Made by a program: the position numbers and the translations under genes
In this document: piece by piece, positions 21,826 to 59,633 of the stretch
How positions within the stretch are numbered: position 1 is the stretch's first letter
Layout: each line of letters opens with the position of its first letter
Assembly (NCBI RefSeq): GCF_024169515.1
Contig: NZ_JAMKCQ010000001.1
Span: 3,100,001-3,164,000, forward strand
Length of the DNA stretch: 64,000 bases
Reading direction: 5' to 3'
From: Erwinia aphidicola
GTDB taxonomy: Bacteria > Pseudomonadota > Gammaproteobacteria > Enterobacterales > Enterobacteriaceae
The notes under the pieces: generated by a model
Seen by the model: the letters and a program-made list of their open reading frames with translations, nothing else
Databases searched by the model: none
What the model was told of the DNA's origin: nothing

Positions 21826-22027
21826 TATACCCTTCATTCTTCAAGCCGCAGATGCGTTGGCTTCATCCATTATTCGGCCCATCCCTGGACCTCCCCCCTT
21901 CGGGACCACTGTAGACAGCGTTCAAATCTGCTCCGGGCAGATTTGTCACCCCTGTCACAGAGCGATCTATGCTGCCGGGGACTCATGGCCTTGCCGCCTT
22001 TCTGCAGCTCGAATTATTTTGGCTATA
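21826..22027. repeat. ERIC repeat no. 3, carrying an internal insertion
   Basis: The outer parts match ERIC (TATACCCTTCATTCTTCAAG at the left, CTCGAATTATTTTGG at the right, with GTCACAGAGCGATC and GCCGGGGACTC in the core). The element is 202 bp long, about 77 bp longer than the other two copies. The extra DNA lies at roughly 21864-21942 and holds its own hairpin, AAATCTGC (21924-21931) with GCAGATTT (21937-21944). Together with 21,703-22,050 it fills the ybfE-ybfF gap, where I see no gene. Confidence 0.8.
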
Positions 22028-55981: not shown

Positions 55982-56785
55982 ATGATTAGTAGCTTCAGAA
56001 CTCACCTGTTGAGTCTGTCGTTACTGATTGGCGTAGCGGCCCCCTGGGCCGCTAATGCCCAGGCAACAATCAGTAACGTTGGCTCTGGCTCGGTTGAAGA
56101 CCGCGTCACCACTCTTGAGCGTATTTCTAATGCTCAGGCACAGCTCCTCCAGCAGCTTCAGCAGCAACTTTCCGCTAACCAAAATGATATTGACCAGTTA
56201 CGTGGTCAGATCCAGGAAAACAGCTATCAGCTGAACCAGGTTGTGGAACGTCAGAAAGGCCTTTACCAGCAGATCGACAGTCTGAGCAGCGGTGGCGCAA
56301 ATGCTAACGCAGCCGCAGCTGGCGGCGATGCTGCGGCAGGCAATAGCGGTGCGTCAGGTAGCGACGCGGCGGCGGCTCCTGCCGCCGCTGCTGCTGCGCC
56401 TGTGCAAAGCGGTGATGCCAACACCGACTACAATGCCGCAGTGGCACTGGTGCTGGAGAAAAAGCAGTACGATCAGGCGATCGCCGCTTTTCAGGCCTTT
56501 GTGAAGAAGTATCCGGATTCCACCTTCCAGCCGAATGCCAATTACTGGCTGGGACAGTTGAATTACAACAAAGGTAAAAAAGACGACGCGGCCTATTATT
56601 TTGCCACCGTAGTAAAAAATTACCCTAAATCACCGAAGAGTGGCGATGCGCTGCTGAAGGTGGGGGTGATCATGCAGGAAAAAGGCGACAAGGCAAAAGC
56701 CAAAGCGGTGTATCAGCAGGTGGTAAAACTTTACCCTAATACTGATGCAGCGAAACAGGCGCAAAAACGTTCGGCCGCTCTGTAA
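55982..56785 (+). CDS. cpoB: CpoB (YbgF), coordinator of cell-wall synthesis and Tol
   Basis: CpoB is a periplasmic protein that coordinates PBP1B activity with Tol-driven outer-membrane constriction. The 267 residues are four more than in E. coli. A signal peptide ends near AANAQA (residue 28). A Gln-rich trimeric coiled coil (about 35-105) is followed by an Ala/Gly-rich linker (about 105-140) and tetratricopeptide repeats (DYNAAVALVLEKKQYDQAIAAF begins the first, read in pieces). It lies 9 bp after pal. Confidence 0.95.
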   Translation: MISSFRTHLLSLSLLIGVAAPWAANAQATISNVGSGSVEDRVTTLERISNAQAQLLQQLQQQLSANQNDIDQLRGQIQENSYQLNQVVERQKGLYQQIDSLSSGGANANAAAAGGDAAAGNSGASGSDAAAAPAAAAAAPVQSGDANTDYNAAVALVLEKKQYDQAIAAFQAFVKKYPDSTFQPNANYWLGQLNYNKGKKDDAAYYFATVVKNYPKSPKSGDALLKVGVIMQEKGDKAKAKAVYQQVVKLYPNTDAAKQAQKRSAAL

Positions 56786-56871
56786 TTTGCGCCATCTGGC
56801 CAGATTTCGCCTGAATTCTGGTCTTACCGCGTGAAAGCTAAGCAGTTGAACAGCTTAACCTGAAATAGTGG

Positions 56872-56899
56872 TTGCGCTGGAAATTCAAATCAGTAATAT
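56872..56899 (+). promoter_or_regulatory. Candidate promoter of the Lys/Val tRNA operon
   Basis: TTGCGC (56872-56877) and TAATAT (56894-56899) are 16 bp apart, followed by a GC-rich discriminator (GCCGCCG). This places the start about 45 nt before the first tRNA-Lys. Confidence 0.5.
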
Positions 56900-56949
56900 A
56901 TGCCGCCGTTGCCGGGGGATATGTTAAGAGACGCCAGCAGCACAAAAGT

Positions 56950-57025
56950 GGGTCGTTAGCTCAGTTGGTAGAGCAGTTGACTTTTAATCAATTGGTCGCA
57001 GGTTCGAATCCTGCACGACCCACCA
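56950..57025 (+). tRNA. tRNA-Lys (UUU), copy 1
   Basis: This is a complete 76-nt tRNA with CCA; the anticodon loop CTTTTAA gives UUU. It is identical to copies 2-4. Confidence 0.97.
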
Positions 57026-57055
57026 CTATTAAGTTTTACGCGGTGTAAACCGTGA

Positions 57056-57137
57056 AGGATGAGAACCGTAAAGGTTCGAGTCGAGCGAAAGCGAGACAAC
57101 GTTGCGTCAGCAACGGCCCGAAGGGCGAAGTCATCCT
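57056..57137 (+). repeat. Multi-hairpin element 1, closed by AGGATGA/TCATCCT
   Basis: AGGATGA (57056-57062) pairs with TCATCCT (57131-57137). Four hairpins lie inside: GAACC/GGTTC (57063-57077), GTC-GA-GC with GC-GA-GAC around GAAA (57080-57097), CGTTGC/GCAACG (57100-57115) and GCCC/GGGC around GAA (57116-57126). The right end merges into a tRNA-Lys tail. The same hairpin order recurs in element 2. Confidence 0.7.
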
Positions 57138-57150
57138 GCACGACCCACCA
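57073..57150 (+). pseudogene. Decayed tRNA-Lys tail 1, T-loop interrupted
   Basis: The last 18 nt of tRNA-Lys, including CCA, are intact at 57133-57150. The GGTTCG of the T-arm at 57073-57078 is separated from them by about 54 nt of hairpins, where a tRNA has only AAT CC following. No D-arm or anticodon arm precedes it, so it cannot be a tRNA. A copy of the lys-val spacer follows. Confidence 0.75.
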
Positions 57151-57196
57151 CTATTAAGTTTCAAGCGGTGTAAACCGTGCTTTAAAGTTTCGATAT

Positions 57197-57272
57197 GGGT
57201 GATTAGCTCAGTTGGTAGAGCATCTCCTTTACACGGAGGGGGTCGGCGGTTCGAGCCCGTCATCACCCACCA
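57197..57272 (+). tRNA. tRNA-Val (UAC), copy 1
   Basis: This is a complete 76-nt tRNA with CCA; the anticodon loop TTTACAC gives UAC. Confidence 0.97.
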
Positions 57273-57276
57273 TATC

Positions 57277-57352
57277 GGGTCGTTAGCTCAGTTGGTAGAG
57301 CAGTTGACTTTTAATCAATTGGTCGCAGGTTCGAATCCTGCACGACCCACCA
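57277..57352 (+). tRNA. tRNA-Lys (UUU), copy 2
   Basis: This is a complete 76-nt tRNA with CCA and anticodon UUU, 4 bp after tRNA-Val. Confidence 0.97.
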
Positions 57353-57392
57353 AACTTTAAAGCGTGAAAGTAGCAAAGATTAACCGCATTGC

Positions 57393-57468
57393 GGGTCGTT
57401 AGCTCAGTTGGTAGAGCAGTTGACTTTTAATCAATTGGTCGCAGGTTCGAATCCTGCACGACCCACCA
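57393..57468 (+). tRNA. tRNA-Lys (UUU), copy 3
   Basis: This is a complete 76-nt tRNA with CCA and anticodon UUU. The 46-bp spacer after it is the intact form of the lys-val spacer. Confidence 0.97.
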
Positions 57469-57514
57469 CTATTAAGTTTTAAGCGGTGTAAACCGTGCTT
57501 TAAAGTTTCGATAT

Positions 57515-57590
57515 GGGTGATTAGCTCAGTTGGTAGAGCATCTCCTTTACACGGAGGGGGTCGGCGGTTCGAGCCCGTCATCACCCACCA
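57515..57590 (+). tRNA. tRNA-Val (UAC), copy 2
   Basis: This is a complete 76-nt tRNA with CCA and anticodon UAC, identical to copy 1. Confidence 0.97.
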
Positions 57591-57594
57591 TATC

Positions 57595-57670
57595 GGGTCG
57601 TTAGCTCAGTTGGTAGAGCAGTTGACTTTTAATCAATTGGTCGCAGGTTCGAATCCTGCACGACCCACCA
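57595..57670 (+). tRNA. tRNA-Lys (UUU), copy 4
   Basis: This is a complete 76-nt tRNA with CCA and anticodon UUU. It is the last intact tRNA of the operon. Confidence 0.97.
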
Positions 57671-57677
57671 ATGTAAG

Positions 57678-57701
57678 AAGGCGCCCTAAAGGCGCCTTTT
57701 T
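57678..57701 (+). terminator. Terminator of Lys/Val tRNA operon, copy 1
   Basis: AAGGCGCC (57678-57685) pairs with GGCGCCTT (57691-57698), followed by further T residues. It is part of a 63-bp direct repeat. Confidence 0.85.
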
Positions 57702-57725
57702 GCTATGTGCGATTCGGGCGGGGTT

Positions 57726-57802
57726 CGAACCTGCAGCAGGTTCGGGTCGAACGCAGTGAGACAGCGTTGCGCCAGCAACGACCCGAAGGGCGAGGCGAAG
57801 CC
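57726..57802 (+). repeat. Multi-hairpin element 2
   Basis: The hairpins in order are CGAACCTGC/GCAGGTTCG (57726-57744), GTC-GA-AC with GT-GA-GAC around GCA (57746-57762), CGTTGC/GCAACG (57765-57780), CCC/GGG around GAA (57782-57790) and an extra GGC/GCC around GAA (57794-57802). The first four correspond to the hairpins of element 1. In the second, the inner pairs changed together (GC/GC to AC/GT) while the flanking GA-GA pairs stayed. Confidence 0.7.
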
Positions 57803-57825
57803 GAGTTATCCTGCACGACCCACCA
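57736..57825 (+). pseudogene. Decayed tRNA-Lys tail 2, T-loop interrupted
   Basis: GCAGGTTCG (57736-57744) equals the 5' half of the tRNA-Lys T-arm, and the 18-nt tRNA-Lys tail with CCA is at 57808-57825. Between them 63 nt of hairpins replace one base of the T-loop. The rest of the tRNA is missing upstream. Confidence 0.75.
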
Positions 57826-57832
57826 ATGTAAG

Positions 57833-57856
57833 AAGGCGCCCTAAAGGCGCCTTTTT
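57833..57856 (+). terminator. Terminator, duplicated copy 2
   Basis: This has the same stem and T-run as 57678-57701. It belongs to the second copy of the 63-bp repeat (57808-57870), which is identical to 57653-57715. Confidence 0.85.
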
Positions 57857-57881
57857 GCTATGTGCGATTCTGTGCGATTCT

Positions 57882-57906
57882 GGCTGACCGAAAAAGAGGG
57901 TCAGCC
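57882..57906. repeat. Palindrome array, unit a1
   Basis: GGCTGACC (57882-57889) and GGTCAGCC (57899-57906) form a perfect stem around an A-rich loop. It is the first of six palindromes that fill the gap up to the Ada-AlkA gene. Confidence 0.7.
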
Positions 57907-57947
57907 ACTACGAGCCGGTAAGTCGCATATCGCGCCGGGTTTCGTAG

Positions 57948-57973
57948 GGGACGACCGCTTTTCTGGTCGTCCC
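57948..57973. repeat. Palindrome array, unit b1
   Basis: GGGACGACC (57948-57956) and GGTCGTCCC (57965-57973) form a perfect 9-bp stem around GCTTTTCT, preceded by TTTCGTAG. Confidence 0.7.
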
Positions 57974-57982
57974 GGGTTTTTT

Positions 57983-58007
57983 GGCTGACCCAAAAAGAGG
58001 GTCAGCC
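57983..58007. repeat. Palindrome array, unit a2
   Basis: GGCTGACCC (57983-57991) and GGGTCAGCC (57999-58007) form a 9-bp stem. With b2 it is a tandem copy of a1-b1, displaced by 101 bp. Confidence 0.7.
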
Positions 58008-58048
58008 ACTACAGGCTGGTAAGTCGCATATCGCGCCGGGTTTCGTAG

Positions 58049-58074
58049 GGGACGACCGCTTTTCTGGTGGTCCC
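58049..58074. repeat. Palindrome array, unit b2
   Basis: GGGACGACC (58049-58057) faces GGTGGTCCC (58066-58074), with one mismatch compared with b1. Confidence 0.65.
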
Positions 58075-58099
58075 GGGTTTGGGGGCCGGTGTTTCGTAG

Positions 58100-58125
58100 G
58101 GGACGACCGCTTTTCTGGTCGTCCC
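58100..58125. repeat. Palindrome array, unit b3
   Basis: GGGACGACC (58100-58108) and GGTCGTCCC (58117-58125) repeat unit b1 exactly, including loop and TTTCGTAG lead. Confidence 0.7.
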
Positions 58126-58132
58126 GGGTTGA

Positions 58133-58159
58133 GGGCCGATCGAAAAAGAAGATCGGTCC
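58133..58159. repeat. Palindrome array, unit c
   Basis: GGGCCGATC (58133-58141) and GATCGGTCC (58151-58159) form a stem with one G-T pair. The left arm equals that of the nei-gltA palindrome at 35529. It ends 17 bp from the stop codon of the Ada-AlkA gene. Confidence 0.6.
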
Positions 58160-58175
58160 CTGCGCATATTTCATA

Positions 58176-59633
58176 TTACCCCAACTTGCCGCTCTTCCAG
58201 ATATGCATCACCGCATAACTGCGCCATGGCCGCCACGCCTGTGAACGAACCTCTGCCTGCTTCGCGCTGATACCCCCCAGATTGTTACGTACCACGATAT
58301 CCCCGGCGGGGAAGGCATCCGGCCAGCGTAGCGCACGCATTGCCAGATACTGCGCTGTCCATTCGCCAATCCCCGGCAGGGCTAACAGCTGCGCCACGGT
58401 TTGCTCCGGCTGACTGGCAGCGTCTAGCTGCAGCGTTCCATCCGCACAGCTTGCCGCCAGCGCCAGAATGCAGCGGGTGCGGGCGCTGACAATGCCCAGG
58501 CCGGCAATCTCATCTACTGAACATTGAGCAACGCGAGCAGGCAGGGGGGAGAGGTGGGTTAACTGCGCAAACGGCGTGGTCAAGCGATCGCCGAACGCCG
58601 TGGCGAAACGTCCCCCGAGCGTCGCTGCGGCCTTTACGGTGATCTGCTGACCAAGGATGGCGCGCACCGCCATTTCGAAGCCGTCAAAAGCCCCGGGCAC
58701 GCGCAGGCCAGGGCTGGCATTCAGCGCGGGCTTTAACAGCGGGTCGAGCGCCAGATGTTCAGCAATCAGGTCCGGACGGGCGCTGAGATCGAACAGATTA
58801 CGCAGGCGACGGAGCAGAGCGGGCAGCACCGGCGTCAGCGAATGGGTGAACTCCACCAGCAGCACACTCTTCGCTGCCGCCTGAGTGACCCTGATCCACC
58901 CCTGATGCGCTCCCAGACGCACGGTACGCGCATAACTCTGCTCATCAACATATTCCACGCCCAGCAGTGCACGCAGCCGCAGAAAGCCGAGCATGGCCTG
59001 CCAGTCGTAGGGGGGGCGATAGCTCAGCTGTAGCGTAGAGGTATCACTGCCGTTCAGCTCGCGCTCTTCGCACTCGCTGGCCTTGCGCAGGCGGGTGGGT
59101 GGCATCCGGTACTGAGTGCTGAAGGCAGCGTTAAAACGGCGCAGGCTGGCAAATCCGCTGGCAAAGGCGATCTGCGTGACCGGCAGCCGCGTTTCACTCA
59201 GCAACTGCTTAGCCAGCAGCAGGCGGCGCGTCTGGCGCAGCTCCTGCGGCGATACGCCCAGCTCCTTCTGCACGATACGCCGCAGCTGGCGCAGGCTTAG
59301 GTGAAACTGCGCGGCGATCTCTTCCAGACTCTCCACCTGCTCAATCAGCCCCTCGTCAATGCGCTGCATCAGCCGCCCCGCGATGCGCTGGCTGTTATCC
59401 ACCGGGGCGTTGCCGGGGGCCAGCTCCGGGCGGCAGCGCAGGCAGGGGCGAAACGATGCTTTCTCCGCTGCCTCGGCGCTGTCGAAGAACAGGCAGTTTT
59501 CCGCGTAGGGCGGTTTCACCGGACAAATCGGGCGACAATAGATACCCGTCGAAGTCACCCCGACGTAAAATACGCCGTCGAAGCGAGCATCGCGGGAAGT
59601 GAGGGCACGATAGGCAGAGTCTGGGTCAATCAT
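58176..59633 (-). CDS. Ada-AlkA fusion: alkylation sensor and 3-methyladenine glycosylase
   Basis: This 485-residue protein joins two E. coli activities. Residues 1-75 are the Ada N-terminal zinc domain with C33, C37, C64 and C67 (IYCRPICPVKPP, RPCLRCRPE), which in Ada accepts methyl groups from phosphotriesters. Residues about 85-185 are an AraC-type helix-turn-helix pair. Residues about 200-310 are the AlkA N-domain, and 320-485 the HhH-GPD glycosylase with LPGIGEWTAQYLAMRA and the likely catalytic Asp445. The Ada methylguanine transferase domain is absent; ogt, divergent from it, encodes that activity. The protein is probably both regulator and repair enzyme. Confidence 0.9.
   Translation of the reverse strand: MIDPDSAYRALTSRDARFDGVFYVGVTSTGIYCRPICPVKPPYAENCLFFDSAEAAEKASFRPCLRCRPELAPGNAPVDNSQRIAGRLMQRIDEGLIEQVESLEEIAAQFHLSLRQLRRIVQKELGVSPQELRQTRRLLLAKQLLSETRLPVTQIAFASGFASLRRFNAAFSTQYRMPPTRLRKASECEERELNGSDTSTLQLSYRPPYDWQAMLGFLRLRALLGVEYVDEQSYARTVRLGAHQGWIRVTQAAAKSVLLVEFTHSLTPVLPALLRRLRNLFDLSARPDLIAEHLALDPLLKPALNASPGLRVPGAFDGFEMAVRAILGQQITVKAAATLGGRFATAFGDRLTTPFAQLTHLSPLPARVAQCSVDEIAGLGIVSARTRCILALAASCADGTLQLDAASQPEQTVAQLLALPGIGEWTAQYLAMRALRWPDAFPAGDIVVRNNLGGISAKQAEVRSQAWRPWRSYAVMHIWKSGKLG

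Follow-up and report, generated by a model that had tools for sequence, protein, structure and literature searches.

A stretch of 64,000 nt from Erwinia aphidicola (assembly GCF_024169515.1, contig NZ_JAMKCQ010000001.1, positions 3,100,001 to 3,164,000; hereinafter the window) contains two elements located behind tRNA-Lys(TTT) genes, which are designated copy 1 and copy 2. Both elements are RtT RNAs, also called tRNA-linked repeats (TLRs), and are new members of this named family (Rfam RF00391). Each is very probably a three-part element derived from tRNA-Lys, in which a set of hairpins occupies the T-loop position and which is able to close on itself and to end like a tRNA. Our data support the hairpin core as a module shared with ERIC repeats and with the tail of E. 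coli rrnB, less surely so for the Lys-type copies.

Identity of the two elements

Both elements match the full RF00391 model (1–130), copy 1 with 86.0 bits and copy 2 with 86.8 bits (curated cut-off 45). Most consensus pairs are retained in the two alignments, and a few pairs in each are non-standard. Four copies from the tyrT region of E. coli, one of them annotated as rttR (b4425), score 132.9–137.5 bits with the same model. The window elements share with the E. coli rttR/tyrT repeats the position behind a tRNA, the type of tRNA tail, the order of the hairpins and the occurrence of tandem copies, but their host is tRNA-Lys, and copy 1 is without the last hairpin. The original prediction, made from the letters alone, knew no name for the elements and held them to be different from the tyrT repeats; neither statement survives these scores.

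TLRs have been recognized since 1978 (Egan and Landy 1978; Rudd 1999, as cited in PMC8144298). E. coli K-12 contains 22 of them at ten loci, with one to five per locus, and their hallmark is that the last 18–19 bp repeat exactly the 3’ end of the tRNA or rRNA gene before them (PMC8144298). A tandem GA motif in RtT is already in print (PMC7657543), and RtT has been reported from Pasteurellaceae (PMC4986893). Among 5426 genomes of E. coli, 4318 match the copy 1 query, none over 80% of it, and all ten of the E. coli matches listed are annotated by RefSeq as ‘RtT sRNA’.

Host-matched arms around a hairpin cassette

The letters, coordinates and hairpin order previously read for the two elements were borne out by direct reading (Table 1). 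The RtT match begins 12 nt (copy 1) and 31 nt (copy 2) 3’ of the tRNA-Lys genes, and in both elements all 18 of 18 tail positions agree with the end of the tRNA-Lys that precedes them. In copy 1, the 5’ strand of the closing helix P1 is complementary to the start of the tail except for one mismatch, and the 3’ side of helix P2, GGTTCGA (57073–57079), equals the end of the host T-stem plus the start of the T-loop. In copy 2, the inverted copy is 86% complementary to the T-arm region of tRNA-Lys (inverted repeats I1–I4), and GGTTCG at 57739–57744 precedes a G that stands in place of the A of the tRNA.

The fold of copy 1 has a free energy of −49.2 kcal/mol (z −5.7), as good as which none of 200 shuffled sequences folds. 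Folded alone, the cassette of copy 1 forms three hairpins (z −3.5), while that of copy 2 is no better than shuffles (z −0.4). A six-helix structure, set by hand from the fold of copy 1, was examined in an alignment of 35 of 52 non-redundant elements. Standard pairs fill 86.3% of the cells, compared with 34–43% when the structure is slid along the alignment. Both sides of a pair have changed in 125 cells, compared with 42.0 in shuffled alignments, none of which (0/500) is as high. The compensatory stem changes read from the two window copies are supported. RNAalifold run on plain MAFFT alignments missed most of the local hairpins; the hand-set structure was checked by shuffles and slides instead.

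P1 pairs the 5’ strand of the element with the tail, which is host sequence, and a swap test asks whether the 5’ strand tracks the host. With one representative per tail (30 distinct), none of 5000 permutations reaches the element’s own pairing in any of three trials, and within the Ser elements only 1 of 5000 does. The 3’ side of P2 is present in 72 of 89 elements and, set against the 5’ strand of the T-stem, scores 1.97 of 3 with its own host and 1.00 with other hosts. Counted over 84 elements (Arg elements excluded), the inverted copy matches its own host at 15.0 of 20 positions, other hosts at 11.8 and shuffled queries at 9.6. The own host exceeds the others in 77/84, the match is at least 16 in 43/84, and the maximum is 19. 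Taken together, these counts identify the 5’ half of RtT as an inverted, host-specific copy of the 3’ end of the tRNA.

The hairpins start after T-loop nucleotide 58 (position 58/59). Specifically, the 5’ part of the T-loop, TTCGA, precedes them exactly in 49 of 84 elements and at four of five letters in 32, and is not found in 3; the exact placement of the hairpins at the T-loop, as read in the window, is supported.

Both window elements thus have three parts, all but the hairpins taken from the end of tRNA-Lys. Part one is an inverted copy of the T-arm plus a portion of the acceptor 3’ strand; part two is a direct copy of the same tRNA stretch, ending in CCA; and part three is the compact hairpin set, which interrupts part two at T-loop position 58/59 (TTCGA^ATCC, where ^ marks the junction). 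The two arms pair as P1 and P2, whereby the transcript can close on itself with a tRNA-like end. Covariation and host-matched pairing establish arm pairing for the family; it is clear in copy 1 and weak in copy 2. The rebuilt tRNA-like 3’ end may then let tRNA-processing nucleases, presumably RNase E, cut RtT from the operon transcript. RNase E recognition of the repeated tail has been proposed for the rRNA-linked RrB, and 3’ETS-leuZ is an RNA freed from a tRNA operon transcript (PMC8144298). Excision as a tRNA mimic, with the element being tolerated, is most likely; selection for a function in trans is possible but weakly supported. We know of no RtT fold in 3’ETS-leuZ.

Several observations weigh against this arrangement or narrow it. 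The whole of copy 2 folds no better than many shuffles (z −0.5, 57/200 as good), and its best fold is without P1. The 17 elements outside the covariation alignment are mostly more diverged (12 Ser, 2 Pro, 2 Glu, 1 Tyr). The swap test within Tyr is not significant (849/5000), and the five tRNA-Arg elements, which the inverted-copy count leaves out, show no P1 (own host 3.4, other hosts 3.3). In the tail census described below, 26 of 121 elements are without a good tail, some with a diverged 3’ end. The processing by RNase E is suggested by analogy, from a paper on another TLR member.

An open-access literature search found no prior description of a host-matched inverted arm, of hairpins at the T-loop position TTCGA^ATCC or of a cassette shared with ERIC; the accessible part of PMC8144298 does not mention such an arm in TLRs. 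The host-matched arm permits a direct genetic test of processing by tRNA mimicry.

Distribution and the tail rule

The genome of the window contains six RtT matches at E ≤ 0.001, five of them over the cut-off of 45, located behind tRNA-Lys (three), tRNA-Pro, tRNA-Tyr and tRNA-Ser. In a sample of Enterobacterales, 28 of 148 genomes have a match at E ≤ 0.001 (22 over the cut-off). Because the family recurs both in its own genome and in the order, the two window elements are not a product of chance. Matches are also present in 13 of 21 genomes of relatives, and 12 other genomes of the genus have 0 to 12 matches each. Among named genomes, the full model (R1, E ≤ 0.01) finds RtT in 48 of 80 cpoB-linked loci, many of which end at a contig end.

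A tail census covered all 130 distinct RtT matches from the order sample and the relatives. An upstream tRNA is present in the DNA examined for 121; of the 9 without one, six lie less than 300 nt from a contig end. Tail and tRNA end agree at 18/18 positions in 76/121 elements and at 16/18 or more in 95/121. The hosts of these 95 are Lys (33), Ser (27), Tyr (13), Pro (12), Arg (6), Glu (3) and Gln (1). For two of the 26 other elements the nearest called tRNA is tRNA-Val, while the tail is of the Lys type. Together with the covariation, the census supports the view that the element is structured and linked to the 3’ ends of tRNAs.

Because the tail in the Rfam model is that of tRNA-Tyr, we built a core model (R2) of RtT without tail or closing helix, which was trained on tRNA-linked elements and may miss others. 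Its six strongest matches in the genome of the window (E ≤ 1e-13) are the same six RtT elements. Applied to 31 loci of the genus (29 best matches plus two more), R2 gives 72 matches at E ≤ 1e-6. Of the 71 with upstream DNA, all 71 lie behind a tRNA, and its tail follows in 66; further copies at tRNA 3’ ends, which the original prediction had proposed to look for with a covariance model, were found. Diverged RtT-like elements with a host-like tail were also seen 3’ of tRNA-Arg in tRNA-Arg clusters (L183/L301 and L294).

The description of the elements as decayed tRNA-Lys tails is misleading in view of the exact tails in 76/121. In 24 of 74 first copies, moreover, the tail is kept at 16/18 or more while the next 20 nt are alike at 10/20 or fewer, which argues for selection on the tail. 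That the elements are two decayed tRNA-Lys genes split by unrelated insertions is accordingly very hard to credit: GCAGGTTCG ... ATCCTGCACGACCCACCA can indeed be read as the 3’ half of a tRNA, but no anticodon or D-arm remnant was seen upstream of either, and an identical plan with covarying arms is found behind Ser, Tyr, Pro, Glu and Gln tRNAs.

A proposed four-hairpin cassette shared with ERIC repeats

The five next-best R2 matches in the genome of the window (E 1.6e-5 to 8.1e-4) comprise one behind tRNA-Arg and four away from tRNAs, inside ERIC repeats; six further matches are weaker (E 0.0099 to 0.29). Weak core-model matches (L179–L182) had first been taken as noise and turned out to be ERIC inserts. 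One insert lies in the window itself (21869–21948). ERIC was recognized by the sequence printed in PMC2759123, and the repeat around this insert has 2 mismatches at each end. The order of hairpins in ERIC inserts is that of RtT: a GACAA-stem-TTTGA hairpin, an ACG hairpin, CCC(C)GAAGGG(G), and a hairpin ending in a GAGTAAT-type sequence.

A third model, R3, was built from 11 ERIC inserts: six from the genome of the window, including the insert in the window, two from a genome listed as the same species (G162; contamination 10%) and three from two E. coli genomes. In its alignment, 97.6% of cells are paired, with 31 double changes compared with 8.1 in shuffles. The criterion for an R3 cassette was four ordered hairpins with GACAA..TTTGA and GAGTAAT-type junctions. 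At E ≤ 0.01, R3 finds 13 matches in the genome of the window. Ten lie in ERIC repeats, namely the six inserts used for building and four new ones; the ERIC ends of these matches were checked against a control, and one shows the right end only, the insert splitting the left. The other three are the tRNA-Ser RtT (4.6e-15), the tRNA-Arg RtT (8.1e-5) and one intergenic match at 2340298. With R3, E. coli rrnB scores 54 bits (2e-16), the best Ser, Gln and Tyr RtTs score 50–64 bits, and other matching RtT or rRNA loci score lower.

The likeness could instead be convergence of GC-rich hairpins, rather than common descent, which we consider improbable. The Lys-type cores barely match R3: copy 2 and its twin, the third tRNA-Lys copy of the genome (L001), reach 16.1 bits (E 0.002 in 120 kb), copy 1 has no match at E ≤ 0.01, and genome-wide neither window copy reaches E ≤ 0.01. 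Both window copies have the cassette hairpin order, with hairpin A of another form. Over 40 RtT or rRNA loci, R3 gives a match at E ≤ 0.01 in 30 and none in 10. Convergence does not readily explain, however, why a model built from ERIC inserts alone finds rrnB and the tRNA-Ser RtT at such E-values, why all but one of its matches in the genome fall in ERIC repeats or tRNA tails, or why four of the five next-best matches of a model trained on tRNA-linked elements are ERIC inserts. The junction mostly found at both kinds of site, GA^A, is a further point against it. Also, the unpaired junction letters are common to different hosts while the stems differ.

When 48 matches (46 distinct) are aligned jointly, 96.9% of cells are paired, with 247 double changes compared with 70.8 in shuffles (0/500 as high). 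Slid controls, which matter because the alignment was fitted to the structure, give a covariation of at most 0.087, compared with 0.575 for the structure in place. An ERIC insert (z −4.6) and the rrnB stretch (z −4.0) take the four-hairpin fold as their free minimum, and the tRNA-Ser RtT (z −3.0) largely does so. No Rfam family was found on the ERIC inserts or the rrnB cassette at the gathering threshold (13 loci).

ERIC itself is a palindrome of 127 bp that lies between genes and has no relation to tRNA, and many copies are without a cassette; in some ERIC (IRU, RU-1) repeats a four-hairpin cassette built alike is present, at three sites, mostly GA^A. In E. coli, 670 of 5426 genomes match one ERIC insert. 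The orientation of ERIC cassettes relative to neighbouring reading frames is mixed. Wilson and Sharp (2006) reportedly noted insertions of ~70 bp in ERIC. We found no open-access paper that ties ERIC to rtT and rrnB; the words ERIC, BIME and repetitive are absent from the text of PMC8144298. Candidate attenuators of the BIME type upstream of gatY, rbfA and cvpA have been reported as similar to rtT, and were assigned to BIMEs (PMC2965389).

If the RtT core is the movable ERIC/5S cassette, two long-known enterobacterial repeat families become one question. The rrnB T1–T2 stretch, which is widely used in cloning plasmids (PMC8144298), contains one copy of the cassette between its terminators.

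The minus strand of window positions 21840–22020 is the ERIC repeat that holds the window insert. The matching ERIC in G162 (L270) has lost part of the cassette.

Proposed landing site of the cassette

With the cassette removed, 19 ERIC sites were compared with seven cassette-free ERICs, one of which is a remnant with a partial cassette. The flanks match the cassette-free ERICs at 19–27 of 28 bases across the junction. With the left edge fixed at GA, the next base is A in 18/19 sites. With edges left free and the remnant omitted, 13 of 15 sites are best or tied-best at GA^A or one base earlier, the exceptions being L281 and L297. The cassette edge can be placed to within one A, and duplication of 1 nt is possible.

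By eye, the junctions read TTCGA^ATCC in tRNA, GGGA^ACTGCC in 5S, and CAGGA^AGGCGG, GCGA^ATCCC and GTGA^ATGC in ERIC. Two RtTs of Pectobacterium (L114, L125) have a second cassette, located in the inverted arm at GAGA^ACC. In the window, copy 1 fits GA^A (TTCGA^ATCC) and copy 2 is one letter off (TTCGG^ATCC). Exceptions are L300 and L292, where CACAAA stands behind TGCT, and Pantoea L150, which has no A after the junction.

One ERIC in the genome of the window (L285/L291, G000:C1:1792756-1792950, minus strand) has cassettes in both arms. In G162, 268 nt holding the whole L285 ERIC and its two cassettes are absent, with a 4-nt overlap at the junction; this represents movement or loss of the ERIC and not of the cassette. 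No filled and empty pair was found for a cassette at one ERIC between strains.

We give a nearly even chance to the reading that the RtT core represents an independent class of tiny mobile cassettes (~50–85 nt, three to four hairpins) inserted precisely, mostly at GA^A. Target duplication would then amount to at most one A, and the hosts would be palindromic or hairpin-forming: the T-loop of duplicated tRNA 3’ ends, the inverted arm of RtT, the tail of 5S rRNA and three sites in ERIC, with up to three cassettes found in one ERIC. On the same reading, RtTs (TLRs) would be duplicated tRNA tails colonized by the cassette. The host’s own pairing would be left intact, because the cassette ends adjoin and the whole cassette folds locally. 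Such insertion, behind a short motif and with no duplication of the target, resembles the single-strand transposition of HUH elements (IS200/IS605, REP/RAYT). Alternatively, the cassette may insert into RNA and then be copied back. The GA^A rule would make the idea of a shared cassette testable.

The Pectobacterium RtTs with two cassettes lie at L125:5856-6034 and L114:5711-5888. An ERIC of Pectobacterium (L114:8583-8852) contains three cassettes at three sites. At L300:1501-1564 and L292:1501-1564, a shorter cassette is intergenic and precedes ATCCTCACGTAC; its left junction is not GA. R3 matches antisense to the tRNAs were seen near the tRNA-Lys operon of Pantoea (L150:5928-6008, L169:6354-6435 and L153:5952-6052, all on the minus strand).

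Presence, absence and descent of the copies

The CpoB encoded next to the operon shows 100% identity to its counterpart in E. aphidicola JCM 21238 (L093), a genome in which both window sites are empty. Specifically, site 1 is without a 77-nt core and one 48-nt repeat, and site 2 is without a 92-nt core and one perfect 63-nt repeat. In the window, the direct repeat that extends past the tail of copy 1 is 48 nt with 3 mismatches, and that past the tail of copy 2 is 63 nt and identical (tail, terminator-like hairpin and spacer; period 155). Since E. persicina and E. rhapontici (L096, L098) have RtT in the same operon, the simplest reading is that JCM 21238 lost its copies by recombination between the direct repeats. 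The L001 site is empty in G162, probably the same assembly as that of JCM 21238; G162 has five R1 matches, behind tRNA-Pro, tRNA-Tyr (two) and tRNA-Arg (two), and none behind tRNA-Lys. Presence or absence of exact units bounded by 48- and 63-nt direct repeats shows that RtT copies behave as slippage or recombination repeats, and that the species can do without the tRNA-Lys copies at least.

The same exact presence and absence would be expected of a neutral or selfish DNA repeat that spreads by slippage of tRNA tails and whose fold is kept since unfolded inserts harm processing. Near-identical copies occur in tandem arrays, copy 2 and L001, at distant loci of one genome, are identical at 92/92 core bases, and a 175-bp rtT variable-number tandem repeat is among the differences of Salmonella Paratyphi A and Typhi (PMC2658671). 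Against this, the stems co-vary in ERIC inserts too, where no tRNA processing is at stake, and tails remain exact beside a diverged spacer in the 24/74 described above. We regard such a repeat as a serious possibility of somewhat below even probability.

A functional RNA acting in trans, for example a by-product of tRNA operons that binds a protein or a small RNA and is kept for regulation, seems unlikely. The fold is maintained by compensatory change, processing and binding of Hfq and CsrA have been reported for the three rRNA-linked TLRs of E. coli (PMC8144298), and RtT is among the low-temperature-induced RNAs of Thioalkalivibrio (PMC8092127). On the other hand, the three tRNA-Lys copies are absent in a conspecific genome, copy number varies within the genus as given above, and the 19 tRNA-linked TLRs scored <0.01 in a prediction of CsrA binders; a role of tyrT in amino-acid starvation (the stringent response), once claimed, was retracted, and no function of TLRs is known (PMC8144298).

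The original prediction had the element spreading or persisting through tRNA T-loops; a recent move of RtT from one type of tRNA to another is unsupported. The nearest core in another genome belongs to the same host class in 82/85, so the host classes look old.

Features of the window

Table 1. Positions of the RtT elements, their parts and related features in the window.
Feature	Position	Strand	Evidence
Four-hairpin cassette within ERIC repeat	21869..21948	−	R2, E 3.5e-4 genome-wide
tRNA-Lys(TTT), host of copy 1	56950..57025	+	ARAGORN, Rfam tRNA
RtT RNA (RF00391), copy 1	57038..57150	+	Rfam 86.0 bits, cut-off 45; alignment
Copy 1, closing helix P1, 5’ strand CGTGAAGGAT	57051..57060	+	Fold; family swap test
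Copy 1, helix P2 (GAACC/GGTTC)	57063..57077	+	Sequence reading, fold, family tests
Copy 1, hairpin cassette, 53 nt, at T-loop position TTCGA^ATCC	57080..57132	+	Sequence reading, fold
Copy 1, tail, last 18 nt of tRNA-Lys including CCA, ATCCTGCACGACCCACCA	57133..57150	+	Sequence reading
tRNA-Lys(TTT), host of copy 2	57595..57670	+	ARAGORN, Rfam tRNA
Terminator-like hairpin and T run between tRNA and copy 2	57678..57701	+	Sequence reading, within repeat D4
RtT RNA (RF00391), copy 2	57702..57825	+	Rfam 86.8 bits; alignment
Copy 2, inverted copy of tRNA-Lys 3’ region, CGGGCGGGGTTCGAACCTGC	57715..57734	+	Inverted repeats I1–I4
Copy 2, hairpin cassette, 62 nt, junction TTCGG^ATCC	57746..57807	+	Sequence reading
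Copy 2, tail, last 18 nt of tRNA-Lys including CCA	57808..57825	+	Sequence reading
Terminator-like hairpin, second copy, after copy 2	57833..57856	+	Within repeat D4

Copy 2 lies between two terminator-like hairpins, similar to the rrA, rrB and rrF TLRs, which lie between dual terminators (PMC8144298). A pattern scan did not list these GGCGCC hairpins, which are readable in the sequence, and a consensus scan of 56780–58200 found no sigma-70-like promoter. In a plasmid collection, 32 records match the tRNA region, none across >80% of the query. Downstream of copy 2, positions 57878–58164 contain tandem repeats bearing GGCTGACC..GGTCAGCC and GGGACGACC..GGTCGTCCC hairpins, and this array differs in JCM 21238.

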